From contig OX424566.1 in the NCBI GenBank assembly GCA_949152475.1, positions 28,186,423 to 28,250,422 on the forward strand: a stretch of DNA of 64,000 bases, written 5' to 3'. Both the position numbers and the translations under genes were made by a program. The notes under the pieces are model-generated. The model did not search any database and was not told the origin of the DNA. It saw only the letters and a program-made list of their open reading frames with translations. Positions 35,826 through 62,987 of this stretch are shown here, one piece after another (the first letter of the stretch is position 1; the number at the start of each line of letters is the position of its first letter). The stretch is from Terebella lapidaria (Eukaryota > Annelida > Polychaeta > Terebellida > Terebellidae).

Positions 35826-36461
35826 GCTCATCCAGCAGCTTCCTCCATGCCTGAGGAGATTCAGCATCTCGAACTGGACATTTCAACACGTATCACTGCT
35901 CAGATGCAGTTGATGTTTACCCAGCTGTTGACCCAAATGCATCACAGTCTCCTTCAGGGTCGACAACCTACAGCTCCTCCTCCTGGCTTCCTGCCTCTTG
36001 CGGGTCGTGTGAGCGAGGCCACTTGTGGACATCTGTCTATGCCACTACAGCGGACCCAGTCCCTGCAGCCTCCAGGCATCGTACCTCCGGAGCAGCTCCT
36101 TGCTACGTCTTCGCTGGTCCTCATTCCTCAACCCGACTCCTGGGCTCATCCAGCAGCTTCCTCCATGCCTGAGGAGATTCAGCATCTCGAACTGGACATT
36201 TCAACACGTATCACTGCTCAGATGCAGTTGATGTTTACCCAGCTGTTGACCCAAATGCATCACAGTCTCCTTCAGGGTCGACAACCTACAGCTCCTCCTC
36301 CTGGCTTCCTGCCTCTTGCGGGTCGTGTGAGCGAGGCCACTTGTGGACATCTGTCTATGCCACTACAGCGGACCCAGTCCCTGCAGCCTCCAGGCATCGT
36401 ACCTCCGGAGCAGCTCCTTGCTACGTCTTCGCTGGTCCTCATTCCTCAACCCGACTCCTGG
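35826..36461 (+). repeat. Perfect 318-bp tandem duplication in DIRS element 2 gag
   Basis: Copies 35826-36143 and 36144-36461 look identical over 318 bp (106 codons, so in frame). Each contains MPEEIQHLELDISTRITAQM. A third, diverged copy lies near 37027-37330. Confidence 0.9.
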
Positions 36462-38370
36462 GCCTTCACGTGTTGTTACACCAGCGCAAGTCCTCCAGGT
36501 GCCACTCTTACCACCTCCACCTCATTCCGTCGCTACCTCTATGGCTTCCCAAAAGCGCCGGTACCCGGACACAGATTTGGACGAAGAAGACGAAGAGGAT
36601 TTGGATGTAGCGTCCAGTCTTTGCCCCTCGCGTGGGGAAGACCGCCTGTCTCGCCAGGAACTACTCTTCTGGCAGAAGTTCCCTCCAGAACCTCAAGCGG
36701 ATACCTCATCCTCGGTCGATCCGGTCTCTTGTGGTCAGCCGGTGCCTCCAGCGAACTCACGCCAGCAATTGCCCCTCAGCCGCAGCGTTCGTCAGGCCTT
36801 CAAGTGTCGGGACACGGCCGCAGTCAAGTCCAAGGCAGACCACTGCTCCCTCGGGCCACTCTTCAGCGGAGTCTGTCTCGGGCTGCTTTTTAGCGGAGCC
36901 TGGTTCCTGCGGGCCGTTTTTAGCGGCGTCCGGGCCTTCAGGCCACCCTCTACCTGCTACTTCGGGCCGTTCTTCAGCGGAGTCCGTCCCGGGCCACTCT
37001 TCAGCAGAGTCCATTACTGCTCGTCCAGCAGCTTCCTCCACGCCTCAGGAGATTCAGCAGCTCTAACTGGATATTTCAGCACGTATCACTGCCCAAATGC
37101 AGTTGATATTTACCCAGCTGTCGACCCAAATGCAGCACAGTCTCTCTCAGTGTTGACCACCTAAAGCTCCTCCTCCCGGCTTCCTGCCTCTTGCGGGTCA
37201 TGCGAGCGAGGCCACTTGTGGACTTCTGTCTATGCCACTACAGCCTACCATGTCCCTGCAGCATCTAGGCAACGTACCTCCGGAGCAGCTCCTTGCTACG
37301 CCTTTGCAGGTCCTCAACCCGACTCCTGGGCCTTCACGTGGTGTTACACCAGCGCAAGTGCTCCAGGTGCCACTCTTACGACCTCCACCTCCTTCCGTCG
37401 CTGCCTCTTAGGCTTCCCAAAAGCGCCGGCACCCGAACACAGATTCGGACGAGGAGGATTTGGATGCAACGTCCAGTCTTTGCCCCTCACTTGAGGAAGA
37501 CCGCCTGTCTCGCCAGGAACTACTCTTCCGGGAAAAGTTCCCTCCAGAACCTCCGGCGGATACCTCATCCTCATGATCTGGTCTCTTGTGGTCAGCCGGT
37601 GCCTCCAGTGAACTCACGCCAGCAATTGCCCCTCAGCCGCAGCGTTCGTCAGGCGCAAGTCCAAGGCAGACAAGATAAAGCACCCAAAACTCTCCACTTT
37701 GTATGAGCCTTCGCACAAGGATTTCACGGAGAAACCTACCAAGCCCTCCAAGGAGGCCCTCCAGTTTAATGTCAAATCCAACATTACAGCTGACGGACGT
37801 ACGGCAGTGGCTACGCTCGGCCATCTTGATCGACTCGACTCAAGACTGGCTCATCGCCGCAGCTCGAGACCTTCTCGAAGGACTGTCAAGCCAGGGCTCA
37901 GCGGGCCCAATCCCTCCAGCCTCTCTACAGGAGCTGCTCACCACAGCTGTCAGGCTCCTTTCCAGCGCTGGTGTAGCCATCCGCGATCACCTACACCAGC
38001 TCACCTACAGGGCTTACACAATGGAACAGTGGCAACAGTGGGATAAGGGAATCCTTCATCCAGTCCATGTCTTTCTGGCCCACGGCAGTCTTGAAGTCTT
38101 CCTTCGTTCAGCCCGTATGTTGCTCTCTTGCACTCAGGAAGCTCTGACAGGTCCCTCGCACAACTCCTTGTTTCATGGAGAGGACCTCGACCTCGTCCGC
38201 GAGGAGCATCAGGTCTCTGACCATGTACAGTGGGCCAACGCCCATGCAGTTAGTGTCGGAGCTGCTCGCCAATCAGAAGTTGTGGACGCCGCTCGCTCCA
38301 ACACAGACCTCTTCGGCCGCTTCTTCCAATCCCAAGAAGAAGAACAAGCCTATCGTGGGGTGTTGATGCT

Positions 38371-40650
38371 CTGTCCATGGACTGGGAGGGTCTGTATGCT
38401 TATGCTTACCCTCTGGCCAGTTTGATACCGCAAGGGATCGCCAAGATCCGAGCACATCATTGCCACCTTCTGCTGAATGCTCCTCTGCAACCCGAAAAGC
38501 CGTGGTTTCCAGAGCTTTTGGATCTACTCATCGAGTCTCCCATGCAGTTGCCTCCCCGAGGAGATCTGCTACGGCAGCCATGGTCTCTGGTGTTTCACCA
38601 GAGCCCGCACCAGCTGGCACGTCACGCGTGGATGTTGTCCAACAATCCTTCCGCGCAAAGGGTTTTTCTGACGAAGTGTCCTCTCGGATCGCACAGCCAA
38701 ATCAAAGGTCTTCTTTGGCGGTCTACGAGTCAAAATGGACAGTCTTCAGTACTTGGTGTGAGCGCAGACTCATCCTTTCACGGCCAATGCCCCCTTAATA
38801 GCTGAATTTCTCATGTTAAAATTCAATGAAGATCGGGCTCCGTCTACCCTAGCGGGCTACAGAACGGCTATCGCTAAGACGTTTTTGCTGCGACAGGGTG
38901 TTGACTATGGGATTGATCAGGCCTTGACTTTGTTGCTCAAAAACTTCGAGGTAGATCGTCCTATGGCGCGCAATTCCACTCCAGCGTGGGACTTGTCAAT
39001 GGTTCTGAACCGTCTGGCTTCGGCCTAATTCGAGACATTGGCGTTGGCGCCCCTCAAGTTGACTGTTTTCCAAGTGACCAACTTGAGGGACGCCGACGCC
39101 AATGGCTCGAATAAGGCCGAAGCCAGACGGTTCAGAACCATTGACAAGTCCCACGCTGGAGTGGAATCGCACAGCCAAATCAAAGGTCTTCTTTGGCGGT
39201 CTACGAGTCAAAATAGACAGTCTTCAGTACTTGGTGTGAGCGCAGACTGATCTTTTCACGGCCAATGCCCCCTTAATAGCTGAATTTCTCATGTTAAAAT
39301 TCAATGAAGATCGGGCTCCGTCTACCCTAGCGGGCTACAGAACGGCTATCGCTAAGACGCTTATGCTGCGACAGGGTGTTGACTATGGGATTGATCAGGC
39401 CTTGACTTTGTTGCTCAAAAACTTCGAGGTAGATCGTCCTATGGCGCGCAATTCCACTCCAGCGTAGGACTTGTCAATGGTTCTGAAACGTCTCGCTTCG
39501 GCCTTATTCGAGACATTGGCGTTGGCGTCCCTCAAGTTGACTGTTTTCCAAGTGACCAACTTGAGGGGCGCCGACGCCAATGGCTCGAATAAGGCCGAAG
39601 CCAGACGGTTCAGAACCATCGACAAGTCCCACGCTGGAGTGGAATTGCACAGCCAAATCAAAGGTCTTTTTTGGTGGTCTATGAGTCAAAATGGACAGTC
39701 TTCAGTACTTGGTGTGAGGGCAGACTGATCCTTTCACGGTTAATGCCCCCTTAATAGCTGAATTTCTCATGTTATAATTCAATGAAGATCGGGCTCCGTC
39801 TACCCTAGTGGGCTACAGAATGGCTATCGCTAAGACGCTTTTGCTGCGACAGGGTTTTGACTATGGGATTGATCCGGCCTTGACTTTGTTGCTCAAAAAC
39901 TTCGAGGTAGATCGTCCTATGACGTGCAATTCCACTCCAGCGTGGGACTTGTCGATGGTTCTGAACCGTCTGGCTTCGGCCTTATTCGAGCCATTGGCGT
40001 CGGCGCCGCTCAAGTTGGTCACTTGGAAAACAGTCTTTCTCCTGGCCCTAGCCTCTGGCAGGCGTCGAGGTGAGATCCACATGCTGGATGTGTCTAAGGT
40101 TAGCTGGAAGGAGAATTATGCTCAGGTCAGACTAGACGATCTCCTGTCTTTTCTGTCGAAAACCCAGCTCTCTACAGCTCCTCCGTTATCGATTGTGATC
40201 CCGGCTCTCGATGCCTCTCCTGGCACGGACTTGGAGAGTGATGCGAAGCTCTGTTACGTATGTGCGTTGCATTGCGTTTTACCTTGACAAGACTAAAGAC
40301 TTTCGTCAAGATAAAAAGCTCCTTTTCGTCTCTTATCTGAAGAGTTTCAGGAATGATATTTGCTCTCGAACTATCTCTTCTTGGATTAAGAAATGCATTC
40401 GGCTGTGTCACGATCTAGCCGATCAGACGACTGGTTCTTCATTCCGGGTACATGCGCATGACGTACGGGCCATGGCTGCGTCATTGGCTTATATCGGTAA
40501 TACTCTGTTGTCTCAGGTTATGAGAGCATGTTCTTGGTCCTGCCATAACACTTTCACTTCTCATTATCTCAGAGACATAGCCTGGACGTCTGAAGTCTAC
40601 AGCTGGGCAATGTTGTTGCAGGTCAGCACGTCATCCCCAGCCGCTCATTT
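38371..40650 (+). pseudogene. DIRS element 2 tyrosine recombinase region, rearranged
   Basis: A fragment matching only the segment after RNase H (WEGLYAYAYPLASL..) joins directly to gag at about 38370, so the RT and RNase H domains are deleted. Recombinase sequence begins near 38640 (AKGFSDEVSSRIA). Its N-terminal part is repeated as 478-bp units, each ending in a foldback. The final copy continues through LASGRRRGEIH, HAHDVRAMAAS and FTSHYLRDIAW, but with a frameshift near 40255-40265. Catalytic residues can still be seen, but no intact frame exists. Confidence 0.8.
38691..39760. repeat. Tandem 478-bp foldback units in the recombinase region
   Basis: GCACAGCCAAATCAAAGG begins at 38691, 39169 and 39647, exactly 478 bp apart. 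Within each complete unit the last part (for example 39057-39163) is the inverse of the preceding part (38970-39055), so each unit contains a roughly 90-bp-arm palindrome. Confidence 0.9.
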
Positions 40651-41320: not shown

Positions 41321-41939
41321 AGTATCGGGAATGGAGGAAGTGGGTACGGTGCTGCCCGTGGTGGCAGCGTTGGAGGGATCATTCTTTATTCTTCCCCATA
41401 AGAGAGGTTTTTCTATGGGGAAGCCTAATTTAAGTAGGCTGTTATGAGTTACCCGTGTAGAATTATGGAGGTACATGTAAGTATAATAAATAATACTAGT
41501 TAGGTTACCGGACCTATGGTCCGATAACCTATTGGCATGGCGTTGCGTCCGTCGTCTGTCGTCCGTCGTCGTCGTCCGTCGTCGTCGTCGTCGTCCACAT
41601 TTTTATCTTTTTTGTTTACAGGCGAATTCTTCTGAAATTTTGCACAAAAATACTTAAAAATAATTCAAGAAGGAGGTATTTTTTAGTTTTTTGATTTTCG
41701 CTTTTTTTTCAAAATGGCGGCCGTTTTCGACGAAAAATGCCTGATTTTGGACTTTGGTGGCCATTTTCTCAAAATCTGTTCAGTAACTTTTTTTCTTTTT
41801 GATACATAACACTCCTCATATGTACTCCTATGATGTCTATAAATTTTGTTTCGCTTGAATCGCTCGAAGTGGACCATTTTGGCCCAAACTCGGCCCAAAT
41901 GGGACTTTCCCATGTTAAATTCTCCTATGCTTTATAATG

Positions 41940-43020
41940 GGACACATTATGCCTAATATCTCACTAAATATTGAGATTAGAGACTAGGAATCAATTGTGG
42001 ACATATAGGAAATGATATATGCTGAATATTCTCGTGACCTTGAATTTGACCTCTGACCTCAATTTCAAGGTCAGAGCACAAAATGGCTGATATCTCGCTT
42101 ATTATCGACTCTACAGCTTAGGAATCAATTGTGGACATATAGGAAATGATATATGATGAATATTCTGATGACCTTGAATTTGACCTTTGACCCCATTTTC
42201 AAGGTCATAGGACAAAATGGCTAATATCTCGCTTGTTATCGACTTTACAGCTTAGGAATCAGTTATGAACATATAGGAATTGATATATGCAGATTATTGT
42301 CATGACCTTGAATTTGACCTTTGACCTCATTTTCAAGGTCACAGGACAAAATGGCTAATATCTCACTTATTATCGACTCTACAGCTTAGGAATCAATTGT
42401 GGACATATAGGAAATGATATATGCTGAATATTCTGATGACCTTGAATTTGACCTTTGACGGCATTTTCAAGGTCATAGAACAAAATGGCTAATATCTCGC
42501 TTGTTATCGACTTTACAGCTTAGGAATCATTTATGAACATATAGGAAATGATATATGCAGATTATTGTCATGACCTTGAATTTGACCTTTGACCTCATTT
42601 TCAAGGTTACAGGACAAAATGGCTAATATCTCACTTATTATCGATTTTACAGCTTAGGAATCAATTGTGGACATGTAGGAAATGATATATGCTGAATATT
42701 CTCGGACCTTGAATTTGACCTTTGACCTCATTTTCAAGGTCCAAGGACAAACTGGCTCATACCTTGCTCCTCTATTGACTGTATGGCTTGGGAATCAATT
42801 GTGGACATGATATAGATATACACTTAGTATTTTGATGACCTTGAATTTGACCTTTGCCCCTCCATTTTCAAGGCCACAGCACAAAATTGCTGATATCTCG
42901 CTGATTATTGAATTTACAGCTTAGCAATCAACTGTGGACATGATAATGCTTGATGTTATATATGCTGAATATTCTCTTGACCTTGAATTCAACCAGTGAC
43001 CTGGCTAACATCTAAAATAT
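41940..43020. repeat. 134-bp tandem array in copy A
   Basis: Eight units, with CCTTGAATT starts at 42038, 42172, 42306, 42440, 42574, 42707, 42839 and 42981, mostly 134 bp apart. Each has TGACCTTGA, usually TGACCTTTGACC or a variant, and TCAAGGTC. The third and fifth units share CAGATTATTGTCATGACC, unlike their neighbours. Related arrays lie at 43980-44800, 45340-45600, 45800-46740 and, reversed, 55850-56830. Confidence 0.92.
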
Positions 43021-43529
43021 TAAACATTGTCCGGTAACCTATCTTTGGCCCTTGGCCTAATTTTATCTTTAAAGTTTACAGTCGAATCGTTCTGAAATTT
43101 TTTAGTTCGAAAGTGAGGTATTTTTTAGTTTTCTAATTTTCAATTTTTTTTCAAAATGGTGGCCATTTTTGACGAAAAATGGCCAATTTTGGACTTTAAC
43201 GGTCGTTTTCTCAAAATCTGTTCAATAACTTTTTAGGTTACCGGACCCATGGTCCGATAACCTATTGGCATGGCGTTGCGTCCGTCGTCTGTCGTCTGTC
43301 GTCCGTCGTCGTCCGTCGTCGTCGTCGTCGTCCACATTTTTATCTTTTTTGTTTACGGGCGAATTCTTCTGAAATTTTGCACAAAAATACTTAAAAATAA
43401 TTCAAGAAGGAGGTATTTTTTAGTTTTTTGATTTTCGCATTTTTTTCAAAATGGCGGCCGTTTTCGACGAAAAATGCCTGATTTTGGACTTTGGTGGGCA
43501 TTTTCTCAAAATCTGTTCAGTAACTTTTT

Positions 43530-45631
43530 AGGTTACCGGACCTTTGGTCCGATAACCTATTGCCTTGGCGTTGCGTCCGTCCGTCCGTCCGTCCGTCCGT
43601 CCGTCCGTCGTCCGTTCACATTTTTATCTTTAAAGTTTATGGTCGAATATTTATGAAATTTTGCACAAAAATACCTAAAAATATTTCCAGGAAAGGTTTT
43701 TTTAAAGTTTTTTGATTTTCGCATTTTTTTCAAAATGGCGGCCTTTTTCGTCGAAAAATGGCCAATTTTGGACTTTGACGGTCGTTTTCTCAAAATCTGT
43801 TCAGTAACTTTTTTTCTTATTGATGCATGACACTCCTCCTATGTACTCCTTTGACATGTATAAATTTCGTTGGCCTCGAATCGCTCGAAGTGGGCCCATT
43901 TTGGGCCCAAACTCGGCCCAGATGTGACTTTCCCATGTTAAATTTTCCCATGCTTTATAATGGGACACATCAAGCCTAATATCTCACTTAATATTGAGAT
44001 TAGAGACTAGGAATCAATTGTGGACATATAGGAAATGATATATGCTGAATATTCTCGTGACCTTGAATTTGACCTTTGACCACATTTTCAAGGTCACAGG
44101 ACAAAATGGCTAATATCTCGCTTATTATCCACTTTACAGCTTAGAAATCAATTGTGAACATATAAGAAATGATATATGCTGAATATTCTCGTGACCTTGA
44201 ATTTGACCTTTGGCCTCATTTTCAAGGTCACAAGACAAAATGGCTAATATCTCGCTTATTATCGACTTTACAGCTTAGGAATCAATTGTGAACATATAGG
44301 AAATGATATATGCTGAATATTCTCGTGACCTTGAATTTGACCTTTGACCTCATTTCCAAGGTCACAGGACAAAATTGCTAATATCTCTCTTATTATCGAC
44401 TTTACGGCTTAGGAATCAATTGTGAACATATAGGAAATGATATATGCTGAATATTCTCGTGACCTTGAATTTGACCTTTGACCTCATTTTCAAGGTCACA
44501 GGCAAAATGGCCAATATCTTGCTTATTAGCGACTTTGCAGCTTAGGAATCAATTGTGAACATATAGGAAATGATATATGCTGAATATTCTAGTGACCTTG
44601 AATTTGACCCTTGACCTAAATTTCAAGGTTAGTCATTTTATTTTCAAGGTCAGAATACAAAATGGCTTATATCTCGCTTATTATCAAATTTACAGCTTAG
44701 GGGTCCATAGTGAACATATAGGAAATGATGTATGCTGAATATTTTGGTGATCTAGGATTTGACCTTTGATCTCATTTTCAAGGTCAGAGAACAAAATGGC
44801 TAATATGTCCCTTATTATCATCTTTACATCTGCCGCTGATGACGCCAGTGTGTCTTTGGATAAACTATTTGGTCGGGCTTTGTTTCTATTGCAAAATGTT
44901 TTTTTTTACCTTTCTTATTGGCATCATCAAAATTTGATTGTATTGGTGGTAATAGATTGATACTTACATTTATACCACTGAGTCGGTGTCACTGCTGGCG
45001 GACGTTAAATCTGTCCCCGAGGATACCATCAACTCAGTAGCCTTCGGGCTTGTGATTGGGTACTTTTGTACTTGTCATGTATCTATTCCATGGGGTTAGA
45101 TTCGGATTTCTAAATTATTTTCATAGGTTGTTGGGCAGTTGTATACTAATTCCATCTGGTGTACAGTAGAAACAACTACATTTAACACATTGTCTGCCCC
45201 TGAAGACGCCAGTGTGTCTTTGGATAAACTATTTGGTCGGGCTTTGTTTGTTTCTATTGCAAAGTGTAGTATTTTACGTTTCTTATTGGCATCATCAAAA
45301 TCTGATTGTATTGGTGGTAATAGATTGGTACTTACATTTACAGCATAGGAATCAATTGCGAATATAGAGGAATGATATATACTGAATATTTTCATAACCT
45401 TGAACTTGAACTTTGACCTCATTTTCAAGGTCACATGACAGAATGGCTAATGTCTCACTTATTATCGACTTTACAGCTGAGGAATTTATTGTGGACATAC
45501 TAGAAGTGATATATTTGTTGAAAATTTCATGGCCTTGAATTTATCAGTGACTTTATTTTCAAGGTCACTGGACAAAAGGCTAATATCTAAAATGTATATT
45601 GTCCGGTAACCTTTCTTAGCCCTTGGGCTAA
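43530..45631 (+). mobile_element. HINE-like copy C nested inside copy B
   Basis: It starts AGGTTACCGGAC after CAGTAACTTTTT and ends GGGCTAA at 45631. Copy B sequence (TTTTTCTTTTTGATACATAAC) resumes immediately after. It contains a CCGT microsatellite (about 43570-43612), about eight 134-bp units and a foreign 508-bp insertion (44829-45336). Confidence 0.8.
44829..45336. mobile_element. Short element with terminal direct repeats inside copy C
   Basis: A roughly 140-bp sequence (starting TCTGCC, containing GTGTGTCTTTGGATAAAC, ending CTTACAT) occurs at both ends (44829-44971 and 45193-45336) in direct orientation. The insertion splits a 134-bp unit and is flanked by TTTACA on both sides (44823-44828 and 45337-45342). 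It resembles a miniature LTR-type or Penelope-type element. No coding frame is recognised. Confidence 0.6.
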
Positions 45632-46805
45632 TTTTTTCTTTTTGATACATAACACTCCTCATATGTACTCCTATGATGTGTATAAATTTCGTTGCGCTTG
45701 AATCGCTCGAAGTGGGCCATTTTGGCCCAAACTCGGCCCAAATGGGACTTTCCCATGTTAAATTCTCCTATGCTTTATAATGGGACACATTATGCCTAAT
45801 ATCTCACTTGATATTGAGATTAGAGACTAGGAATCAATTGTGGACATATAGGAAATGATATATGCTGAATATTCTCGTGACCTTGAATTTGACCTCTGAC
45901 CTCAGTTTCAAGGTCAGAGCACAAAATGGCTTATATCTCGCTTATTATCGACTCTACAGCTTAGGAATCAATTGTGGACATATAGGAAATGATATATGCT
46001 GAATATTCTCGTGACCTTGAATTTGACCTCTGACCTCAGTTTCAAGGTCAGAGCACAAAATGGCTTATATCTCGCTCATTATCGACTCTACAGCTTAGGA
46101 ATCAATTGTGGACATATAGGATATGATATATGCTGAATATTCTGATGACCTTGAATTCGACCTTCGACCTCATTTTCAAGGTCACAGGACAAAATGGCTA
46201 ATATCTCGCTTGTTATTGACTTTACAGCTTAGCAATCAATTATGAACATATAGGAAATGATATATGCAGATTATTGTCATGACCATGAATTTGACCTTTG
46301 ACGTCTTTTTCAAGGTCACAGGACAAACAGGCTAATATCTCACTTATTATCGATTTTACAGCTTAGGAATCAATTGTGGATATATAGGAAATGATATATG
46401 CTGAATATTCTCGTGACCTTGAATTTGACCTCTGACCTCATTTTCAAGGTCCAAAGACAAACTGGCTCATATCTTGCTCCTCTATTGACTGTATGGCTTG
46501 GGAATCAATTATGGACATGATATAGAAAATGATATACATTGAATATTTTGATGACCTTGAATTTGACCTTTGCCCCTTCATTTTCAAGGCCACAGCACAA
46601 AATTGCTTATATCTCTCTGATTATTGAATTTACAGCTTAGCAATCAACTGTGGACATGATGTATGCTTAATGTTATATATGCTGAATATTCTCTTGACCT
46701 TGAATTCAACCAGTGACCTGGCTAACATCTAAAATATTAAACATTGTCCGGTAACCTATCTTCGGCCCTTGGCCTAATTTTTTTATTTTTTAAAACGACG
46801 AAATT

Positions 46806-48313
46806 ATACAAATTTTCTGGCTGATAAATATGTTATGCCCACATGTTGTGTATAAGGTTTTGATATATATTTTCGATCACTGGTAGATGTCCAGCTGAAC
46901 CTACAAGTTATAGGCATATCACCCCACATGGTATGGTCACATCACCTCACATGTTATGGCCGAGGTTTTGACAATATAGTGGTCACTGAAACTTTGCAAA
47001 GTTGGCCAAGGTTGTGACAATGTAGTTTCAGAAAATTGGTACATGTTTGCACTCATATAATATAAACAGTCAACTCAACCCACAAGTTATAGTCTGAGTC
47101 ATATCACCCCACATGGTATGGTCACATAACCTCCAATATTATGGCCCAGGTTTTGACAATTTAGTGGTCACTGAAACTTTGCAACGTTGTCCAAGGATTT
47201 GTTGTCCAAGGATTTGACAATGTAGTTTCAGAGAATGGATACCGTACATGTTTGCACTCATATAAACAGTTCATAGTTCATAGCAGAATAACAGGAAATA
47301 GTACCGGGTATTTGAATTCTATCAGCTTTGTTACCTAAGATTTAACTGTTTAAAATCGATAAAAACAATCTGTGTCTTGGCAAAAATATGTTTTGCCGTC
47401 AAAAACATAACCCTGGAAATTAGGAATGTAATATTGAGCTGATGGGAGATCTTTTAGGGACCTTGCTGCTGACAGCAAACGCTCTTGAGTTGTGAACTTA
47501 TAGGCCACGTCTGACGTGAAATATGGTTGGCCAAACCGGTGTATGTAAAATGTGTAAACTTGCCTCTGCAGACGATACACGTATGCTTAAGGTTACGCGT
47601 GTTATATCGGTATATGAATATCGGTATATGAATCTTTTGTCGAACGAGGATGACTCCAAGATGATACCTGGTTTGAAATAATCTCACGGCTGTATTGTGA
47701 ACAAATAGAAACTCATATATTGCATCTTTTGATGATCTTGAATTTAATCTCAAATGACATTAAGTAGTAAATCTCAAGGGACTGGAGCAGATATATACAC
47801 TGTAATTGGTTCAAACCCCGTCAAGTGATCAAATGATATAATATTTGTCCATTTTGTCAGATCACGCTCTGCCACGAAATAGTCTTTGGTACTATCTCCC
47901 GGTCGTGTGATAGAACGTTTGCCGGATCCTGTTCACGACACGTAACAACAATCACAATGCGGAAACCGCACACAAAGTCATCCTGAATTTCAGAAACAGT
48001 ACTGTGCTACACAACCTCAAACACTGTACTCCTTGTCCCCAAATTCATATTCGTGCTGTGTAAACAATATTTAAATTCATTATTCTTGTGTTCAATGGTG
48101 TTTTACTAACGGTATTGTTAGATGTTCTGTATCATATTCAAAATAAAATGTATGTGCTCTCTGGAGATGGGGAATGTAATCACTGTAAGCATGCACCATT
48201 GAGCTTCGATTGGCTTTAATGCATTGTAAGTTTTACGCGGTATAATAATAAAACAACTTTTGCCTGTTTACCCAGGGTAGAAACCGGATTATTTGGGCCT
48301 CTGGGTGTGACAG
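46806..48313. other. Intergenic, with a two-copy 180-bp tandem repeat
   Basis: Two copies of a unit with ACAAGTTATAG, CACATGGTATGGTCACAT and GTTTTGACAAT start near 46897 and 47078 and run to about 47275. The rest (47276-48313) has short minus-strand frames at 47350-47753 that I do not recognise. Confidence 0.6.
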
Positions 48314-50514: not shown

Positions 50515-52218
50515 TCACGTATCTAATATGAGCCCTGAAGGCGGTTGACCTCTCCTAATATCATGGATATAATTCCCACAGTGTTTATGTAGCTTTTGAC
50601 TGAGCACTCGCACAACCGGCTTCAAGCTGTGCTTGTCCACAACGTTCACGTTTTCTTCCGGATCTGTGTCATGGTCGTACAACTCAACCGCATCTGGCTC
50701 ATCCCAGCGTATCATATAGTCCCAGTCAAAATTCTCATTGGCGATTCGATCATACCTCACCCATTCAGTATACCGCCATCGATCCGTGCGCAAAGTGTAA
50801 CCCATCCTGAGGCCCATTCTACGATGTTGTGAAATCGCAATGTCTTTGATTTCCAGTTCCGGATCGTCAATCAGCGGGATGAGACTCGCGCCGTCCGTGC
50901 AAACTTCGATATGGGTAGAGTTTCTCGGACAACCCGGCAGAGTGGGGAGACCCGCGGCCTCCGCAAGAGTCGGGTACAGATCGACGAGTTCAGCCAAAGA
51001 TCTGGATCTTATCCCACGGTCCGTCCTGTTGGGGATGTGTACCATGATAGGCGTATGTACGCCTTGTTCGAAGTTCGAGTGTTTGGCCCACTGACCGTTT
51101 TCGCCCAAGTGGAAACCATGGTCGCCAATGAAGGAGACTACAGTTGACTCTGAGAGGCCAAGATCATGGAGTTCGCCTAGGATTTCTCCTACAAGAGAAT
51201 CAACGTACGAGACGGATGCATAGTACGCCCGGCGAAGGTCTTTTGTGACTCTAGTTGAAAACGTTTCATTGATCGTTCCAGAATGTTTCAGCTTGCGAAG
51301 GTCGGTGAATCTCCGAAGTTCGGGAAAGTCTTGCCAGGCCAATTCAGGCATCTTGTACGGGGCGTAGTAGTTATGTGGCATTTCCGTGTTTCTGTATGGG
51401 TAGAAGTCTAGAAACTCTTCAGGGAAAACAAAAGGAAGATGCGGCTTGTGGAAACCGGTCGCCAAGAAGAATGGCTCTTCGCAAGATTTAGCCTTAGCTG
51501 CGAACTTCCTCAGAAGGTGAAGTGTCTCGTTCGTGGTCTGTTGATCCTCCAAAGGCATCTTCTTCTGCTCTTTCTTGGTAACCGCCTTCCAACTTACACC
51601 AACCGTGAAAACATAGGACCAATACGGCATGTTGGGCGGATGATAGTACGGCTCAGTCCATGAAATGGGATCGTCAAAGTTACTCGCTTTCTCCGGGTGG
51701 AACACCTTACCAACGCCTGCTGTGCGGTAGCCGTGCTCCTTGAAGTATTGAGGCAGTGTGGTGAAGTTTCCACCGCTGTATCGCCAGTAGGTCTTCAAGT
51801 CCCAGACCTTGGTAGTGTCCGGACGTCTACTAGTCAGGAAGGACGACCGGCTGGGTCCACATGAGCTTATCTGGGAGTAGGCTCTCGTTAGAAGCAGACT
51901 CCTACTCGCGAGTTTATCAAGGTGAGGAGTGTACATTTCCGGTGGATTTAATGGCGTCGGAAATTCGGGACCTTTGAATGAGTTCAGCTGAGGTCTGAGG
52001 TCATCGGATATCAGTAAAAGAACGTTCTTTCGTTTGCATTTTGTCTGGTCGTCTGCAGGAGCATCCCCAATCTTTTCTTCCTCTAAAGCAGTTCTGGATT
52101 CTATCCTGATGCTTTCAAGTGTCGAATTTATTCTGGAGTATATTAGGTAAGTGATTGAAATTAATGCCAGCATCAGCAAGATATTTCTTATTCGTATCAC
52201 TCTTCTTCTTGAAGCCAT
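50515..52218 (-). CDS. Iduronate-2-sulfatase-like protein, intronless, signal-anchored
   Basis: 567 residues in one exon. The N-terminus is basic then hydrophobic (RNILLMLALISITYLIY, about residues 11-27), a type II signal anchor rather than a cleaved lysosomal signal. The sulfatase core has metal-binding DD at 72-73 (LLLISDDLRPQL), the formylglycine cysteine C120 in SSCGPSRSS, FHKPHLPFVFPEE (about 256-268), GDHGFHLGENG (D366, H367) and AKHSNFE (K379). KVWDLKTYWR and SVSYVDSLVGEI fit the iduronate-2-sulfatase subfamily, which removes 2-O-sulfate from iduronate in heparan/dermatan sulfate. Substrate and Golgi-type location are inferred. It is paralogous to the gene at 61215-62987. Confidence 0.9.
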   Translation of the reverse strand: MASRRRVIRIRNILLMLALISITYLIYSRINSTLESIRIESRTALEEEKIGDAPADDQTKCKRKNVLLLISDDLRPQLNSFKGPEFPTPLNPPEMYTPHLDKLASRSLLLTRAYSQISSCGPSRSSFLTSRRPDTTKVWDLKTYWRYSGGNFTTLPQYFKEHGYRTAGVGKVFHPEKASNFDDPISWTEPYYHPPNMPYWSYVFTVGVSWKAVTKKEQKKMPLEDQQTTNETLHLLRKFAAKAKSCEEPFFLATGFHKPHLPFVFPEEFLDFYPYRNTEMPHNYYAPYKMPELAWQDFPELRRFTDLRKLKHSGTINETFSTRVTKDLRRAYYASVSYVDSLVGEILGELHDLGLSESTVVSFIGDHGFHLGENGQWAKHSNFEQGVHTPIMVHIPNRTDRGIRSRSLAELVDLYPTLAEAAGLPTLPGCPRNSTHIEVCTDGASLIPLIDDPELEIKDIAISQHRRMGLRMGYTLRTDRWRYTEWVRYDRIANENFDWDYMIRWDEPDAVELYDHDTDPEENVNVVDKHSLKPVVRVLSQKLHKHCGNYIHDIRRGQPPSGLILDT

Positions 52219-53227
52219 TGTCGCATATTCGCAAGATGCACCTCGGAAATTACGCCGGTACCCGGCAAGTTTCAGTTTTGATATTGCATTGTTATATCAC
52301 AGCTACATGTAGGCCCCTATTGCTCCGCCAGTACGAAGTTTGTCTTTGGTGGCGTCAGTCAATCACAGTGGAGTGACACTTGAAAACTGACGGTGAGTTG
52401 TTCTCGAGAGGAAAAACACGTATCACCACTTGGTGAGTGATCATTCTGAAGTGAATTTTTCTGTCCACGCAGAATCGATCTTTACATATCGTCATATGCA
52501 ATTACCATCAAGTTTGTATTGATACAGCACGCTGCTAAAGGCATTTGATATAACAGGAGATGACACGCACGGAGATAGAATAAAACACACAGAAGTACCA
52601 CCTCACTTTGGAATAGAAAAGCCATTATGACATTGATTATCGCTAGGATATTGAGCGCCCCCATCGCATCATCTAATAAAATCAATCATTCGCATAGCAT
52701 CATTCTAAGCATAAACCACAGCTGATCGACAAGCAAAGCTGTCCAAACTACGGCCGACCTCGCCGAGTATGGGGGCGCGGGGCGAGGGCCGACGCGGGGA
52801 ATATAATCAAAGCTAAAGGGGCAAAAATAGTTATTGGTAAACCACACGTGTGCTCGGATGCGTTGAGAAATTACTTTTAAAACACCATATGTGAGGACGA
52901 TATGCTACCATTGCAGGTCAAATGTCAATCATTGTTCTATAAAACATGGCTAGTGCCAACATATATAGACCAACTGTCATCAACATACGTCAGGGGCACG
53001 TGTACACTATTATGGGCTAATCGTCCTTATCAGCGTGTTCTGGCACGCAAAACCACTATTACTGTTCTGTCTATGAAGTTATCAGCACATTTGAACAAGA
53101 AAAGGATTTCCCGAAGTATTTGTTAATGCTGTTTTTCTCATCAATTATTATATTAGGTGGAAATCGGACCAGTTTTCGTCCGTTTGCTACCGACAATAAA
53201 GAAGCCAAAACTGGACAAAACTGAAAG
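52219..53227. other. Intergenic, 5' flank of the first sulfatase gene
   Basis: No gene recognised. A GC-rich patch (GGGGGCGCGGGGCGAGGGCC, 52770-52789) lies about 550 bp upstream of the sulfatase start. No convincing TATA box. Confidence 0.4.
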
Positions 53228-53579
53228 TTAGCCTAAATGCTAAGGAAGGTTACCATACAATCTATGTTTTAGATATGATTAGATATTAGCCCTTTTGCCG
53301 CCGCATCCAGACCGGTGATTCAAGGGCAACGAAACTTATACACGTCACAGAGGTATATGAGAGGAATCTTTTGAAACAAAAATCTCAAATCTAATCAGAC
53401 AGTTTTTGTGAAAATAGCCGCCAAAAACCCCAAATTGACCGTTTTTCGACAAAAATGGCCGCCATTTTAGCAAAAAAAGCTCAAAGATACAAATGTAGAT
53501 GGCCGACGCTAAGTTGCTAACGGACGACTGACGCAACGCCAAAGCAACAGGTTATCGGACCCTATAGGTTTGGTAACCT
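53228..53579 (-). mobile_element. Reverse-oriented short HINE-like copy (E)
   Basis: Reads inverted relative to copies A-C: it starts with a TTAGC..GCTAA hairpin and GGTTACC, contains AAAATGGCCGCC and CAACGCCAAAGCAAC, and ends GTTATCGG..GGTAACCT. The 134-bp array is absent, leaving about 350 bp. Confidence 0.7.
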
Positions 53580-53589
53580 AAAAAGTACA

Positions 53590-54430: not shown

Positions 54431-55794
54431 TGTTATATATTTTCCCACGCAAACGCCAATCTAACATATAGCTGAGTACGTGATGATCGAACATTATGAT
54501 AATATAGTATTTTTTTTTCAAATAATGAGAAAAAAAACTTAGATAAGTTATGCATGAATTGCCCTAGAGACAATATAAGATAAACTTCAATGTATAAATG
54601 AACATAGTGAGACATGAAAATAATATCTCCTTTGATGACCTTGAACTTAACGTCATATGATCCTGAATGTTCAAATCAAGCTCGTGCCTATATCATATGT
54701 GTAAATTAAACACTCTGGCAAATTATGGAAAATCGAACTAATTAAGGTTTGCATCATGACTATATGGAGAGGGCTATGGTGCATTTGGTTATTTGGGAAT
54801 TTCTCACCACGAATATCTCGCTTCTAAAACGAGAGTTGAATATGAGGCTTACATGTATGTGTATAATTATGAGCACATCTTTCGGGGACCACGGTCTTGA
54901 TTTACGACGTAACAGAAGCCTTCAACGTGTCGAAACACAATGTTATTTTTAGAAAAAAAGAGGTTGGCTACCTGTTGAAGTGCTTATATTTGTATCATAC
55001 GCATACGGTTATTCATGTATGGAATATCTTCTGGTGACCTTGACCTGATCTCAGAAGACCGTTGGTGCTAATATTCACGGTTTTGTCCAATACAAATTGT
55101 GCATATTTGTCTGTGGGGGACTGAAACTTGTATAGAGGACAAGGTTGTATCGAAAACAAGTAGCAATGCTTATAAATAAGTGCGCTTTTGAAGACCTTGA
55201 ACTTGATCCCAGCTGACCATAAACGTCGCTATCTGCCATCTAGGCACTAAACGTACGACTGTGACACTGTAAACTTCTAGATTTGCATCACAAGTACATG
55301 ATTCATAAATTCTACTGGTGATCTACCTCATACATGTATAGTCTGAACGTAGGTCCGAGTGCGGGACTCGTACATTAGACTAAATTGTCACTTTTCCTTC
55401 CTATTTATCATTGCAAAAGTGATACGTAAGTAGGAGTTCCGCACGTGGCCCATAGTCTTCCAAAGAGACACGAAGTCGCAGATTACATAATATTTTTCGT
55501 TCTACATGTCAACTGTCACACCGACCGGTATCAATGTGTGCGTACTACTGAATTATACCACTACATGTGTCGCCAAATTGATCGACGGAGTTGGCCTTTC
55601 TGGGCGATTATTCAATGATAAGGTCGCGATCGTATATAGATTTCAGTGGTTATTCCGCTCGCATTCCAGTGGTTATAGTTTAGTCCTGGTTTGGAGACAG
55701 TGTTAACTGACTAATGAAAATTAAATAAAAAAATCGGAAGTATTCAGGGATTTCGCCGAAATCAATTCTAATCTATAATACTCATTTATTAAAA
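54431..55794. other. Intergenic, no gene recognised
   Basis: AT-rich. Scattered GACCTTGAACTT/TGACCTTGACC words (near 54637, 55036, 55192) could be old remnants of the 134-bp unit but are too diverged to assign. Confidence 0.4.
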
Positions 55795-57256
55795 TTAGCC
55801 CAAGGGCTAAGATAGGCTACCGGAAAAATGTTTAGTTTCAAACCATAACTTTTTTCATCGATATTGGCGTATTGACCTTTCAAGGTCATTGAAAGTGAAC
55901 TTTAAGATTACCATTGGAACTGCAATATGATTTCTCATTTGATACTGCCAATATTTAAGCTTTATCTTGAAGTGCTCTACGAGTTTACTCCATACAGCTC
56001 CCATTATGAAAGAAAAATGAGGTCAAGGGTCAAATTCAAGGTCATAACAATATTCACCATGCATTATTTCATATATGTTCACAATTGATTCCCAAGCCGT
56101 TAAGTTGATAACAAACAAGATATTAGCCATTTTGTGCTCCGACCCTGGAAATAAGGTCAAAGGTCGAGTTCAAGATCATGAGAATATTCTGTATATATCA
56201 TTTCCTATATGTGCACAACATATTCCCAAACTGTAGAGTCGATAACCAGATATTACACAACTGATTCCTGAGCTGTAAAGTCGATAATATGCAAGATATT
56301 AGCCGTTTTGTGCTCTGACCTTGAGAATAAGGTCAAATATTCAAGGCCACGACAAAATTCAGAATATATCATTTCTTATAGCTTCACAAATGATTCCTAA
56401 GCTGTAAAGTCGATAATAAGCGATATATTAGCCATTTTGAGCTCTTACCTCGAAAATAAGATCAAAGGTCAAATTCAAGATCGTGAGAATATTCTGAATA
56501 TATAATCTCCTATATGTGTATAACTGATTCCTGAGCTGTAAAGTCGATAATAAGCAAGATATTAGCCATTTTGTGCTCTGACCTTGAAAATGGGGTCAAA
56601 GGTCAAATTCAAGGGCATCAGAATATTTGGATTATGTCATTTCCTATGTGCACAATTGATTCCTAAGCTGTAAAGTCGATAAGCGAGATATTTGCTAATT
56701 TGTTATGTGACTTTGAAATGAGGTCAAAGGTCAAATTCAAGGTCATGCCAATAATCAGCATATATCATTTCCTATGTGTCCACAATTGATTCCTAGTCTA
56801 TAATCTCAAAAGTAAGTGAGATATTAGGCATAATGTGTCCAATTATAAAACATGAGAGTATTTAACATGGGAAAGTCCCATTTGAGTCCAGTCAAGAAAA
56901 TGAAAATGCCCACCACACGCAGACCGGCGATTCAGGGGCAACGAAACTTATATACATCACAGAGGTATATGGGGAAATCTTTTGAAACAAAAATCTCAAA
57001 ACTGCCTGAACAGTTTTTGAGAAAATGGCCGCCGAAGTCAGAAATCGGGCGTTTTTCGTTCAAAATGGCTGCCCCCATTTTGAAAAAAAAAACCGAAAAT
57101 AATAATAATAAAAAAAATACCCTCTTTTCGAAGTATTTCTAGGCATTTTTGTGCAAAATTTCAAAAAGATTCACCCATAAACTTTAAAGATAAAAATGTG
57201 GACGGACACCGACGACGACGACGGACGACGGACACAACGCCATGGTTCGGTAACCT
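55795..57256 (-). mobile_element. Reverse-oriented HINE-like copy (F)
   Basis: Begins with the inverted terminal hairpin TTAGCCCAAGGGCTAA (55795-55810) and a GGCTACCGG subterminal repeat, followed by about seven reversed 134-bp units (AGGTCAAAGGTCAAATTCAA type). It then has AAAATGGCTGCC, an ACGACGACGG microsatellite, and ends TTCGGTAACCT at 57256. The most complete stand-alone copy, 1462 bp. Confidence 0.85.
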
Positions 57257-60200
57257 AAAAATTTAACAATTACACTCTTCCGTTTCATATTATCAATGGT
57301 ACATGTTACTCAATGATTTTGAATAGCATCGAAAATTACCAAAGTGTTAGGAGTTACGATACTCATTAAATTATTGATCCTACAATCAGTCAATCAGTTA
57401 TGTAATCTAAACATTGAAAAGTGCTGATGAGCTATTAGGTGGGTCAATTTTCGAATCAGTTATGCAATGTAAGCAGCAAAGAGTGTTTGGATGACCTATT
57501 GGGTGGGTTAATGTCAGAAATAAACAAGACTTGAGTAGTCGTCAACGGGTACTTATGAAAATGCGGAATTGCTATAATAATCGATTTTACTGAACTATTG
57601 AACTTTGTTTGAATTATCAGCAATATTAGTCACGAGGGTCATGTATGTGAAACGTATATATCGGACACTTACACTGTATCCCACATATAGTCCTATATAT
57701 TATTTGTTCACGAAAATAAACAAAAATGACATTATTATATTAAATGCTTCGAATCAAGACTGTACTAGACATATTTCTGTCCATGTTTGGTGGCCTTGAA
57801 CCATCGATTTCATATTTCAAATAAATTATTTGCATTGATCGTGATTTTTTTCTGCGTAGTGTGTTTGCGGAACATAGCACATACATCTATTCCAATGTTG
57901 TTTTTTTATTTACAATAATAATAAACAAAAATGATACATTGGGAGTGTTGGTGCTCTTGAAAGTGAGAACGAGTATTTGGTGCACACGGTGCACACGGAT
58001 GCTTAACCCCCCCCCCCCCCACCGACACAGTTTAATGACACATACCAATTTTTGCAACCTTGAAAGCTCTCACTCATTTGTCCCGCTGGCATATTTGATT
58101 AATTTACCTTAAATATCACATGTACTATCATTGTATTAACCTGTCAGGGAATGCACTTTCTTGCAAACTCGATAAAAATAAAACATCGACCTTGAATCTA
58201 AAAAAAACAAACAATACGTTTAATGTTTAGCGTGCAACATCACTTCTCATCTCCTCCAATATTGTCGCACATATGTAACATCCGAACCAATGGTGTAATG
58301 CCATCAAAATATGCAGTACCTAAACAAAAATAATGAACTTCTATTCGTGAGTAAAAATAGACGGAACTTAATTCCTCCACTATATTATGTCCATATAATA
58401 TATTGTGAGGGTTCAATTTATGAGGCTCAATTTATTCGAACTTCATAGCTTTGCATTGTACCACGTATAATCTATTTTAAGCCCACAAAACCCATAAATT
58501 GCACAGGTACATCTATAACAGAATTACAGAAAAATCCATAACGCAAACATTCGCTCCGCAATAAAAGCAAACAACACAAGTCATTGACTTTCGAAGCTCA
58601 GATCTTCTGCCCCGATGCTAATTTGACAGGTTACGTGCAAGTATCCTCGCCGGCCGCACAGATACCCGTCAAGCCCACTATTTAAACTCCCGCCTTTCCA
58701 TGAAAGTATTAAAATTCAGTAGCCGACTTTATATCGTCACACATGTATACCATAATTATATGACTTTCACATGAGAATATATCATGTATAACATGTGATG
58801 CATGTTAACATGGATACGTATAACGAAACAGCTGAAGTTGGTTAAATTTGAACAATAATCCCTGGCTTGATGTTAACATCACAGGAAATGTTTTTATTAG
58901 GTATTTTCAAATACCGGTATTCAAAACAGCGTCAAAATTCACATCAAGTAGACGGAGAGTTGATCTCAATTTTAAAATGAAGTCATTATTATCACTTTTT
59001 GGTGGCTGATTTCTGCCATCGGTATTTGTTTCATTGCAATTTTTTATTGCATTTTGAAGAGCAGTCAACATGACATGAAATTAAAAAAACTTGAACAAAA
59101 CTTAACATCATAGCTTGTCGCGATACACGGCAAATATAAAACTCGCCTAATTATTTTGTATCAACAATTGATAACATTAATTTCTGCGTTGATGTGACCT
59201 AGTTTCATGCCTTGATTCAGCTAGCTTCATCGCAGCGAGAACGAACAAGAAGGACAAATAACGATGAAAAAAGCTGTATGAAATATCATGAACAGTTCAA
59301 TATCTAATAGAACAACATTCTTTTTTCACTTCTTGTCAATAAATCGTGTGTGAATTCATTCTACGCGCATGACCTGAACACAACAATAGGGCATTCGAAT
59401 AGAATTATTGTTTTTTTTTCATCCCCTCCTCACATAGTTAAAAAAAAACAACGGGCAAAAATAAACAAATAATTTTACGTCCAAACATCGATTGAACCAG
59501 GCACTAAAGACATATTACTATGACACCATGTGGGAAATAACGAAAATAACACATTTGATCTGTATTTCAAAGTGGATTACCTGAAGGCTAATTGCCATGA
59601 TAATTGAGTATCGACTCACGAGTAATCGACGAAATTCCATAGACTGTAAATATCCCCCAAAACATTTAAAAATAAACTGCTGACATTCGGGACCGGTAAT
59701 TTATGACTAGATTATCACCCGAATTGGCAGTCCAATTATACCGAGGTGATATCATTTTTCATCGATTTGAATATAGCTAGTGTGTCCCTATAGGGTGTCC
59801 TTCGCGTGGCTACTAGAAGCACGTGGGCTCATACATGTATAGGAAAAAAGGTAAAATGTACGTCTTTGGTATGTAAAACATGTTTGGAATCGACATCTCT
59901 ATTATCTACTCCATGTTCGAAGTGATTATTTTCCAATGTTTTTGAAAACAATACTGGACATCGTTCTGGTATAAAATAAACATTACCAGACCTGAAGGTA
60001 CGTACAAGGACGTGCAAACTTGGACAGCGATGTCATCAGTGACTCATTGGGAATTAGCGACATAATATCTAGACATGTCTTTTAGTCTACCCAATGTATT
60101 CGTTCAAATAAAATAAAATAAATTACTGAACCGAGTTAATTATTACTAGGTGAGGATATATATTGAGATACAAATGAATGAATGTTGGCACACGTTTACG

Positions 60201-61214: not shown

Positions 61215-62987
61215 TCAGTAATCTAAAAACAACGACTTTGCATTGCGTGGAAAGTTATATACAATTTCTCTGAAATGAGTCCGTAATTTCGATCGCAGTT
61301 CTGACCTGACGAGTCTGTAGGCAGGATCATCCGCAATATTTACATTCTCAAGAGGGTCGTTCAAGTGGTCATAGAGTTCAGCTCCCAGCACATTTTCCCA
61401 GTTATTGTGGAAGTCCCAGCGTTCATACGATGACCAGGCTCGACTAATCTGGATCCATTCTGTGTATCTGAAGCGATCCGATCGCGCAGAGTAGCCCATT
61501 CTGAGCGAGTTTCGCTTGTGCTGAGAAAAGGCGATGTCTCTTATCGTCAGATCTGACTGATCCACAAGAGGCATCAGACTCATGCCTTCTGTGCAAAGTG
61601 GAATATTGGTGGAGTTGTCGGGACATGCTGGAAGAGAGCCCAAACCAGCTGCGTCGACCAATGAAGGGAAAAGGTCAACGAGTTCAGTTAATGACCTGGA
61701 TTTCGGTCCGTTATTTGTGACACCCGGCACGTGCAGAATTAGTGGCACGTGCAGAACTTGCTCGAAGTTGCTATGTTTAGCCCACTCACCGTTCTCTCCC
61801 AGTGAAAACCCATGGTCTCCCACGAAAGCAACTATAGTTGACTCGTCCAAGCCAAGATGTTTTAGTTCATGGAGAATAACTCCAACAAGGTCATCGACAT
61901 ATGACACTGAAGCATAGTAGGCTCGTCTTAACTGGCGTGAGGTTAGAGTGGGCAATGTTTCGTTGATCGTTCCTTTATTCCTGAGGCGTTTTATGTCGAG
62001 GTATCGTCTTAGCTCAATGAAATCGTCCCAGGCAATCTCTGGCATGTCCACGGGCGCTTGTGGGTTTGATGGTGGGTCGACCAATCCTGAGGGATATAAT
62101 TTCAAGTACTCCTCCGGGAAAACGAACGGTAGATGAGGTTTGTGAAAGCCTGCAGCGACGAAAAAAGGTTGTTGACATGATTTGGCACCTGGAGAGAGAC
62201 GTCTCAGAAGATTCAGTGTGTACTCTGTCGTCTGTTCATCTTCGAGCGGGTATTCGTGTCTCTCCTTCCTGTTGACCGCTTTCCAGCTTACGCCGACAGT
62301 GGAAACACGCGACCAGTGAGGTAAATTTGGCGGCTCGTAGAAGGGGAGCGACCACGATATTGGATCGTTCTCGTGAGCGCCTTCTATCGGGTGGAAAACT
62401 TTCCCGGCACCTGCCGTCAGATAACCCCGTTCTTTGAAGAGTTGAGGCAAGGAGGTGAAGTTGCCACCGCTGTCTCTCCAACTACTATGCAAGTCCCACA
62501 CTTTAGTCGTGTGCGGTCTCCTTCCTGTCAGCATGGACGCTCTACTTGGACCACAAGAACTCCACTGAGCATAAGTTCGCTTCAAGAGGAGACTCCTCGC
62601 CGCCAAGGCGTCCAGGTTGGGCGTGTGTATAGGCGGGTTGTGGATCGGATCTGGGAAATCCTCACCATGGTATGCTGCAATTTGTGGCCGCAAATCGTCC
62701 GCAATTAGAAGTAGTACGTTCTTCCTGGAACATTTCGCGGAGTCAGTGTCCGACTGAACCTCCCATTCAGTCTCTCCCATTTGCTCCACTGTAGCTTCCA
62801 GAGATCGGACTTCGCCCAGGGTGTCCATCAGTTGAAAATTTGGGTACAAGAAAGCCATGACCAACAGCGTGGCCAGAGTTATGCTCAAAGAGGACACCCT
62901 CGTGAATTGCTTCATGCGAATCATTTCGTTCTTCTGGATAGGTTCACAGCACCAGAACTCTAAACTATCCGTTGAAGTCTCCCACAC
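61215..62987 (-). CDS. Iduronate-2-sulfatase-like protein, intronless, second copy
   Basis: 590 residues from the first Met. A start at 62924 (MIRMKQFTRVSS) would put the signal anchor SLSITLATLLVMAFLYP next to the N-terminus and is more likely. Using the long numbering, metal-binding DD is at 97-98, formylglycine cysteine C145 in SSCGPSRAS, FHKPHLPFVFPEE at 281-293, GDHGFSLGENG with D391 and H392, and AKHSNFE with K404. All active-site residues appear present. The same family as the gene at 50515-52218 by motif order, spacing and type II topology. The sequences differ throughout, so the duplication is not recent. Substrate unproven. Confidence 0.9.
   Translation of the reverse strand: MWETSTDSLEFWCCEPIQKNEMIRMKQFTRVSSLSITLATLLVMAFLYPNFQLMDTLGEVRSLEATVEQMGETEWEVQSDTDSAKCSRKNVLLLIADDLRPQIAAYHGEDFPDPIHNPPIHTPNLDALAARSLLLKRTYAQWSSCGPSRASMLTGRRPHTTKVWDLHSSWRDSGGNFTSLPQLFKERGYLTAGAGKVFHPIEGAHENDPISWSLPFYEPPNLPHWSRVSTVGVSWKAVNRKERHEYPLEDEQTTEYTLNLLRRLSPGAKSCQQPFFVAAGFHKPHLPFVFPEEYLKLYPSGLVDPPSNPQAPVDMPEIAWDDFIELRRYLDIKRLRNKGTINETLPTLTSRQLRRAYYASVSYVDDLVGVILHELKHLGLDESTIVAFVGDHGFSLGENGEWAKHSNFEQVLHVPLILHVPGVTNNGPKSRSLTELVDLFPSLVDAAGLGSLPACPDNSTNIPLCTEGMSLMPLVDQSDLTIRDIAFSQHKRNSLRMGYSARSDRFRYTEWIQISRAWSSYERWDFHNNWENVLGAELYDHLNDPLENVNIADDPAYRLVRSELRSKLRTHFREIVYNFPRNAKSLFLDY

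Follow-up and report, generated by a model that had tools for sequence, protein, structure and literature searches.

Why is a transposon-borne repeat in an annelid so dense with nuclear-receptor-type motifs, and does anything in the animal read them? The question is raised by 64,000 nucleotides of the Terebella lapidaria genome (GenBank assembly GCA_949152475.1, contig OX424566.1, positions 28,186,423 to 28,250,422 of the forward strand; this whole stretch is called the window), in which arrays of a 134-bp repeat carry the word TCAAGGTCA again and again. By their anatomy, the elements that carry these arrays are firmly identified as HINEs (non-autonomous Helentrons, a kind of rolling-circle transposon), and the arrays form their satellite-like central repeats. 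It is quite possible, if short of probable, that the TCAAGGTCA words, and not the direct repeat with one-base spacing (DR1) also found in the units, are kept in propagating HINEs through the binding of a monomer receptor of NR5A (FTZ-F1)/ERR type.

The window holds 23 forward units (41951-46723) and seven reverse units, one of them partial (56829-56014), much as a sequence-only reading of the same DNA had counted (about two dozen and seven). On both strands together there are 42 exact copies of TCAAGGTCA, where shuffled sequence gives 0.74 on average and at most 4, and 37 of these lie inside the 134-bp family. When units covering fewer than 95 of the 132 columns were dropped (31 reduced to 29), 26 of the 29 near-complete units retained at least one exact TCAAGGTCA, which bears out the view that an ERR/NR5A-type word is present in most units; both words are exact in 10 of the 29, the upstream TGACCTTGA in 20, and the inverted downstream TCAAGGTCA in 16 of the 26 units long enough to reach that position. 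We take TCAAGGTCA to be an ERR word too, and DR1 to be of the RXR/HNF4 type. The statement that 'many' units hold a perfect DR1 went too far, as the element is exact in six of the 29 and reaches 10 only when the spacer is left free, although the exact word, AGGTCAAAGGTCA, is still well above expectation in the window (6 against 0.01). Over nine loci, with units from outside the window dropped if they had less than 75% of the columns (89 reduced to 78), 64 of the 78 units have at least one exact TCAAGGTCA, and DR1 is exact in 12 and present with any spacer in 25.

The abundance extends to the whole genome (761.6 Mb surveyed, with the reversed word as control): TCAAGGTCA occurs 364,916 times against 5,590 (65-fold), AGGTCANAGGTCA 79,598 times against 228, and TGACCTTTGACCTTGA 5,950 times against 0. 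A random sample of 18 pieces of 10 kb (180 kb, contigs C1-C13, below 28 Mb) contained 54 copies of TCAAGGTCA against 3 of its reverse, 180 bare AGGTCA half-sites against 112, eight DR1 against none, and 23 half-site pairs 6 bp apart, again against none. Fifty of the 54 copies are inside the 134-bp family, and the four outside compare with the three of the control word; by this sample, nearly all TCAAGGTCA in the genome is transposon-borne, and the suggestion that one mobile family scatters regularly spaced monomer words holds. Among 79,420 9-mers in the sample TCAAGGTCA ranks eighth; five of the words ahead of it are limited to 1-3 of the 18 pieces, all five lying within the array unit of a single piece, L030, and the other two are poly-G and an AT repeat. 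Near-complete 134-bp units are present in four of the 18 pieces, alongside motif-free tandem families with units of, among others, 131-132, 121 and 88 bp. A chance origin of the motif abundance is rejected by the window shuffles and by the genome-wide reversed-word controls. Exact scans of viral and prokaryote contig collections with core and unit words gave 0 matches. The 88-bp array in L030 (8383-10000) reaches the end of the sampled piece.

The carrier is identified as a HINE because the five anatomical features that were tested are all present. As described in PMC4067079, a HINE is recognised by its subterminal inverted repeats and 3' palindrome, by tandem repeats or a microsatellite, and by inserting into T-rich sequence that it leaves unmodified. 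Three elements in the window, E1, E2 and E3, share one layout: the subterminal inverted repeat (subTIR) GGTTACCGGAC (41503, 43236, 43531), its inverted partner GGTCCGATAACC close by (41518, 43251, 43546), a CGTC/CGT microsatellite, the 134-bp array, GTCCGGTAACC (43029, 45601, 46746), a palindrome and a T run. The palindrome, TTAGCCCTTGGGCTAA or GGCCCTTGGCCTAA, stands next to the T run at 45616, 43047 and 46764, with a minus-strand copy at 55795. The inverted partner is reported for Cg_HINE and DINE-1 and as absent in mite HINE. The elements are non-coding and are presumed to be mobilised by a Helentron Rep/helicase. The features are as follows.

41501-43064, forward strand: E1, a HINE (outer limits set by reading)
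41503, 41518 and 41546-41595, forward strand: 5' parts of E1 (subTIR, inverted partner, CGT/CGTC microsatellite)
41951-43006, forward strand: array of E1, eight 134-bp units
42035-42073, forward strand: example of the motif core (TGACCTTGA, half-sites, inverted TCAAGGTCA)
42315-42327, reverse strand: example of the exact DR1 AGGTCAAAGGTCA, one of six in the window
43029 and 43047, forward strand: 3' parts of E1 (subTIR, palindrome GGCCCTTGGCCTAA)
43231-46780, forward strand: E2, a HINE split by E3 (outer limits set by reading)
43236, 46746, 46764 and 45794-46723, forward strand: parts of E2 (two subTIRs, palindrome, seven units)
43527-45632, forward strand: E3, a HINE inserted into a T run of E2 (limits from the E2 flanks against uninterrupted E1)
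43531, 45601 and 45616, forward strand: parts of E3 (two subTIRs, palindrome TTAGCCCTTGGGCTAA)
43974-44794 and 45336-45575, forward strand: units of E3
47691-47751, forward strand: relic, part of a single 134-bp unit, diverged and lying away from the arrays
53223-53587, reverse strand: related HINE with like ends, without a 134-bp array
55790-57260, reverse strand: fourth HINE, seven units at 56829-56014 (one partial), palindrome at 55795

The insertion of E3 can be followed at this one site, where the E2 flanks join at a T run that is unbroken in E1 and only the number of Ts differs; the flanks were compared by reading the letters. The aligned pieces overran a few bases into E3, and farther out there are a few substitutions between E2 and E1. 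The array of E3 is itself broken up by two direct repeats of about 150 bp (44829-44977 and 45193-45345), some 215 bp apart and with TTTACA at both junctions; the inserted stretch (44829-45345) has the look of a small element with terminal repeats, of TRIM type or another. A piece of the leader of another HINE, cut off on its 5' side, lies between E1 and E2 (43065-43235). E2 starts within the T run of this leader, which, judged from the letters, does not resume after E2.

If receptors hold the motifs in place, the motifs should stand out from the rest of the unit, and as a set they do not do so significantly. In the 29 window units the half-site columns agree with the consensus at 93.1% against 89.3% elsewhere, and 13 of 132 circular shifts of the half-site mask, the true mask included, do equally well or better; scored by parsimony changes, the mask ranks 21 of 132. 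In the 78 units agreement is 92.0%, with 88.8% elsewhere, and the mask ranks 28 of 132; the rank is 9 of 132 when only internal branches are counted. That the half-site set is not significantly better kept than other bases weighs against selection for receptor binding. DR1 is rejected as a conserved unit: exact in 12 of 78 units, its word ranks 84 (29 units) and 102 (78 units) among 120 13-mers, it decays like average sequence, and its variants shared by at least four loci show no deficit (9, with 6 singletons; p 0.29). In the window units CTTGAATTTGAC, which reaches from the first half-site into the second, is kept best; the top four 12-mers all overlap it and take in the first monomer word, the linker and the beginning of half-site two, and the best hexamers in the 78 units (CTTGAA, TCAAGG, TTCAAG) are off-centre relative to AGGTCA.

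The monomer words behave otherwise. Among 124 9-mers the two TCAAGGTCA words rank 9 and 22 in the 29 units, and 4 and 14 in the 78. On a tree of 77 distinct units (one duplicate removed; 132 bp, nine loci) they have 6 internal and 53 terminal changes, where sequence outside the core has 109 and 291 (p 0.0036 by Fisher's test). Their terminal rates per site are close to those elsewhere (2.9-3.0 against 3.2), which fits free decay in dead copies while propagating copies are held. Variants present in at least four loci number 2 in the monomer words (16 singletons) against 53 (65) elsewhere; for shared variants against singletons p is 0.33, 0.037 and 0.008 at thresholds of at least two, three and four loci, and 0.33, 0.038 and 0.009 with CpG columns removed. 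The shift rank of the monomer words is 5 of 132 both by internal branches and by shared variants. The sequence-only reading had called the motifs the best-conserved part of the unit and had proposed comparing the half-sites with their flanks: the outcome is mixed, in that the monomer words do rank high, whereas the half-site set does not stand out significantly and DR1 is ordinary.

These data are hints that the monomer words may be under constraint in propagating copies, and they are suggestive, not decisive, because sequence passes between the repeats of an array, the loci are no more than nine, the p values carry no correction, the window, source of 29 of the 78 units, was picked by the earlier reader for its motif (the others were unselected by their own motif), and the linker shows no internal change. 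Several points count against receptor binding as the cause. The signal depends on the threshold (p 0.33 at two loci) and is uncorrected over the three; the tree rests on 132 bp of repeats between which sequence may pass; 0 internal changes fall in the linker TGAATT, which extends past the monomer word by its second half; the block TGGCTAATATCT is nearly as well kept; and in the literature searched, as far as its accessible parts go, no mention of NR5A was found for oyster. RXR and ERR homologues are reported from oyster (PMC4070562), as is a homologue of HNF4.

How receptor binding might retain the words can be set out as a sequence of steps. The 134-bp arrays have been dispersed by an element of rolling-circle type. 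Both TCAAGGTCA words would be retained as long as a lineage propagates and would decay once a copy is dead. The retention would arise because a monomer-binding orphan receptor of NR5A (FTZ-F1) or ERR type reads the words; its binding in the germline or early embryo could open chromatin on the element and so aid transposition, and effects on neighbouring host genes would be a by-product. A possible function of the monomer words as receptor sites is moderately favoured. NR5A2 is a monomeric binder of TCAAGG(C/T)CA on nucleosomes and, at zygotic genome activation, targets this motif in the SINE B1 repeats of the mouse (PMC11102866); functional binding sites have been spread by Helitrons in Drosophila miranda (PMC4384637).

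The core recurs in other repeats. A 147-bp repeat, reached through 16-mer matches (loci L009-L028) and found in none of the 18 random 10-kb pieces, sits in a HINE-like carrier with different ends, in the order AAGGCATTTC...GAAATGCCTT hairpin, T-rich tract, array, GAAATGCC, palindrome AAGGCCTTTAGGCCTT, then GACGTCTAG; the pattern of the 3' end matches in six of 20 loci, and by a reading of the letters these ends look unlike those of the 134-bp family. The core of its unit is TGACCTTTGACCTTGACCT, and the two consensus units align over the core alone with a score of 29, reached by four of 500 dinucleotide shuffles; with the core removed nothing is detectable, the score being reached by 94 of 500 simple shuffles. 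Another repeat, the third and a longer one (L047-L049), is distantly related to the 134-bp unit and carries TGACCTTGAATTTGACCTT; L047 and L048 have the 3' ends of the first family. Half-site gaps are 6,1 in the 134-bp unit, 1,0 in the 147-bp unit and 6,4 in the third family (the last read from letters); TGACCTTGA is in the core of each, and the DR1 spacing differs among them. Since it does, and since half-site pairs 6 bp apart outnumber DR1 in the random sample, the RXR/HNF4 interpretation of DR1 is the weaker half of what was first proposed, and is disfavoured. The 20 loci of the 147-bp repeat and L001 were chosen by motif, so that its units (191 reduced to 158 by the same column limit) were left out as a test of motif conservation; their half-sites agree at 91.9% against 90.5% (shift rank 45 of 146). 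The third family was also motif-chosen and its units were cut by the motif pattern, and its identical core is for that reason no evidence. A well-kept ATATCTC block occupies columns 1-12 in both units (TGGCTAATATCT in the 134-bp, ATATCTCGGAAA in the 147-bp), 55 and 58 bp, respectively, after the start of the core; the ATATCTCGGAAA block is the best-kept part of the 147-bp unit.

The same distribution might have come about through ancestry only, an alternative to be taken seriously even if it is somewhat doubtful. A successful HINE would by accident have had the motif in its master repeat, rolling-circle copying would have spread it and nothing would read it, while the core common to the 147-bp family would reflect exchange of repeat fragments between elements. 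The half-site set and DR1 do decay like the remaining sequence, TCAAGGTCA is unenriched outside the family (4 against 3 in 180 kb), and oyster HINE clusters contain otherwise dissimilar monomers with two common segments, for which monomer replacement is discussed in the passages available (PMC7492417). Ancestry accounts less well for the shortage, in the monomer words, of old shared variants (at least three and at least four loci) and of internal-branch changes, and for a likeness to the 147-bp unit that is restricted to the core. Another DNA-binding protein, of the host or a transposase, might instead recognise the segment around CCTTGAATTTGAC and not the AGGTCA half-sites. The best-kept 12-mers and 13-mers centre on the linker, off the half-sites, and the linker has 0 internal changes, as such a protein would have it; the 147-bp family, however, has TGACCTTTGACCTTGACCT without the linker, and we consider this explanation distinctly unlikely. 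A structural role of the inverted arms GTGACCTTGAA...TTCAAGGTCAC, as a hairpin or cruciform in rolling-circle replication or array expansion, is very unlikely, for although the two inverted words can pair, the folding (as DNA) of three core pieces out of four lies 3.3-3.6 standard deviations below shuffles, the loop-proximal part of the arms is kept best and the third family has an inverted AAGGTCA directly after its third half-site (read from letters), the fourth core piece (shortened by its coordinates) and the whole unit are just 1.3 standard deviations below, the 147-bp consensus has no inverted half-site, and pair-change counts do not support a hairpin with compensatory changes, the ten inner pairs having 0 double changes, 11 one-sided changes and 13 broken cells and the outermost pair 2 double changes with 19 broken.

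As a kind, the carrier is known. According to the parts of the sources available, Cg_HINE of Crassostrea gigas has, as here, a 5' subTIR with inverted partner, a GTCC-type microsatellite, a 3' subTIR and a palindrome, together with a short satellite-like array (consensus monomers of 138-181 bp) and genome-wide dispersal (PMC7492417); the elements described here differ in their 134-bp period and receptor-type core, the comparison being one of descriptions and not of sequences, and no receptor-type motif is named in the Cg_HINE passages found. The Cg170/HindIII satellite and the Pearl elements of bivalves likewise place satellite monomers inside Helentron-type carriers, with a monomer of about 166 bp that is set beside the 134-bp unit by description alone (PMC7492417). 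The Helitrons ISX/ISY of Drosophila miranda (PMC4384637, PMC4067079) are also rolling-circle elements that disperse sites, in their case for a chromatin complex; there binding was measured and selection inferred, and here there is sequence alone. Mouse SINE B1 with NR5A2 is a dispersed repeat with the NR5A motif TCAAGG(C/T)CA, and differs in being a retrotransposon for which occupancy and nucleosome depletion were measured (PMC11102866). The literature searched, as titles and abstract openings with few subscription papers, described no receptor motifs in satellites or mollusc transposons. The scale of dispersal, and a core common to two carriers with different ends, are new to us and did not turn up in the literature searched.

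If receptors bind the words, the receptor biology of this animal could not be understood without the transposon, which would be an invertebrate rolling-circle counterpart to NR5A2 on mouse SINE B1. If they do not, the transposon copies would still swamp any motif-based prediction of receptor targets, a matter relevant to work on endocrine disruption. A broader proposal, speculative and on the whole unlikely, is that several rolling-circle lineages independently kept a pioneer-type orphan-receptor site and exploit the opening of chromatin in the germline or early embryo, with most consensus NR5A/ERR sites of the genome being transposon-borne and acting as a sink or as a network.

Elsewhere in the window, a retroelement-like region contains a 318-bp unit present twice at 100% identity (35826-36463) and a 478-bp unit repeated 2.8 times (38688-40017), either recent duplications or assembly artefacts. 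The window also has a fibrinogen domain, part of an ABCA1-like domain and two similar-looking sulfatase frames (PF00884) of about 600 codons with no stop, some 9 kb apart at 50515-52293 and 61215-63029 (reverse strand).

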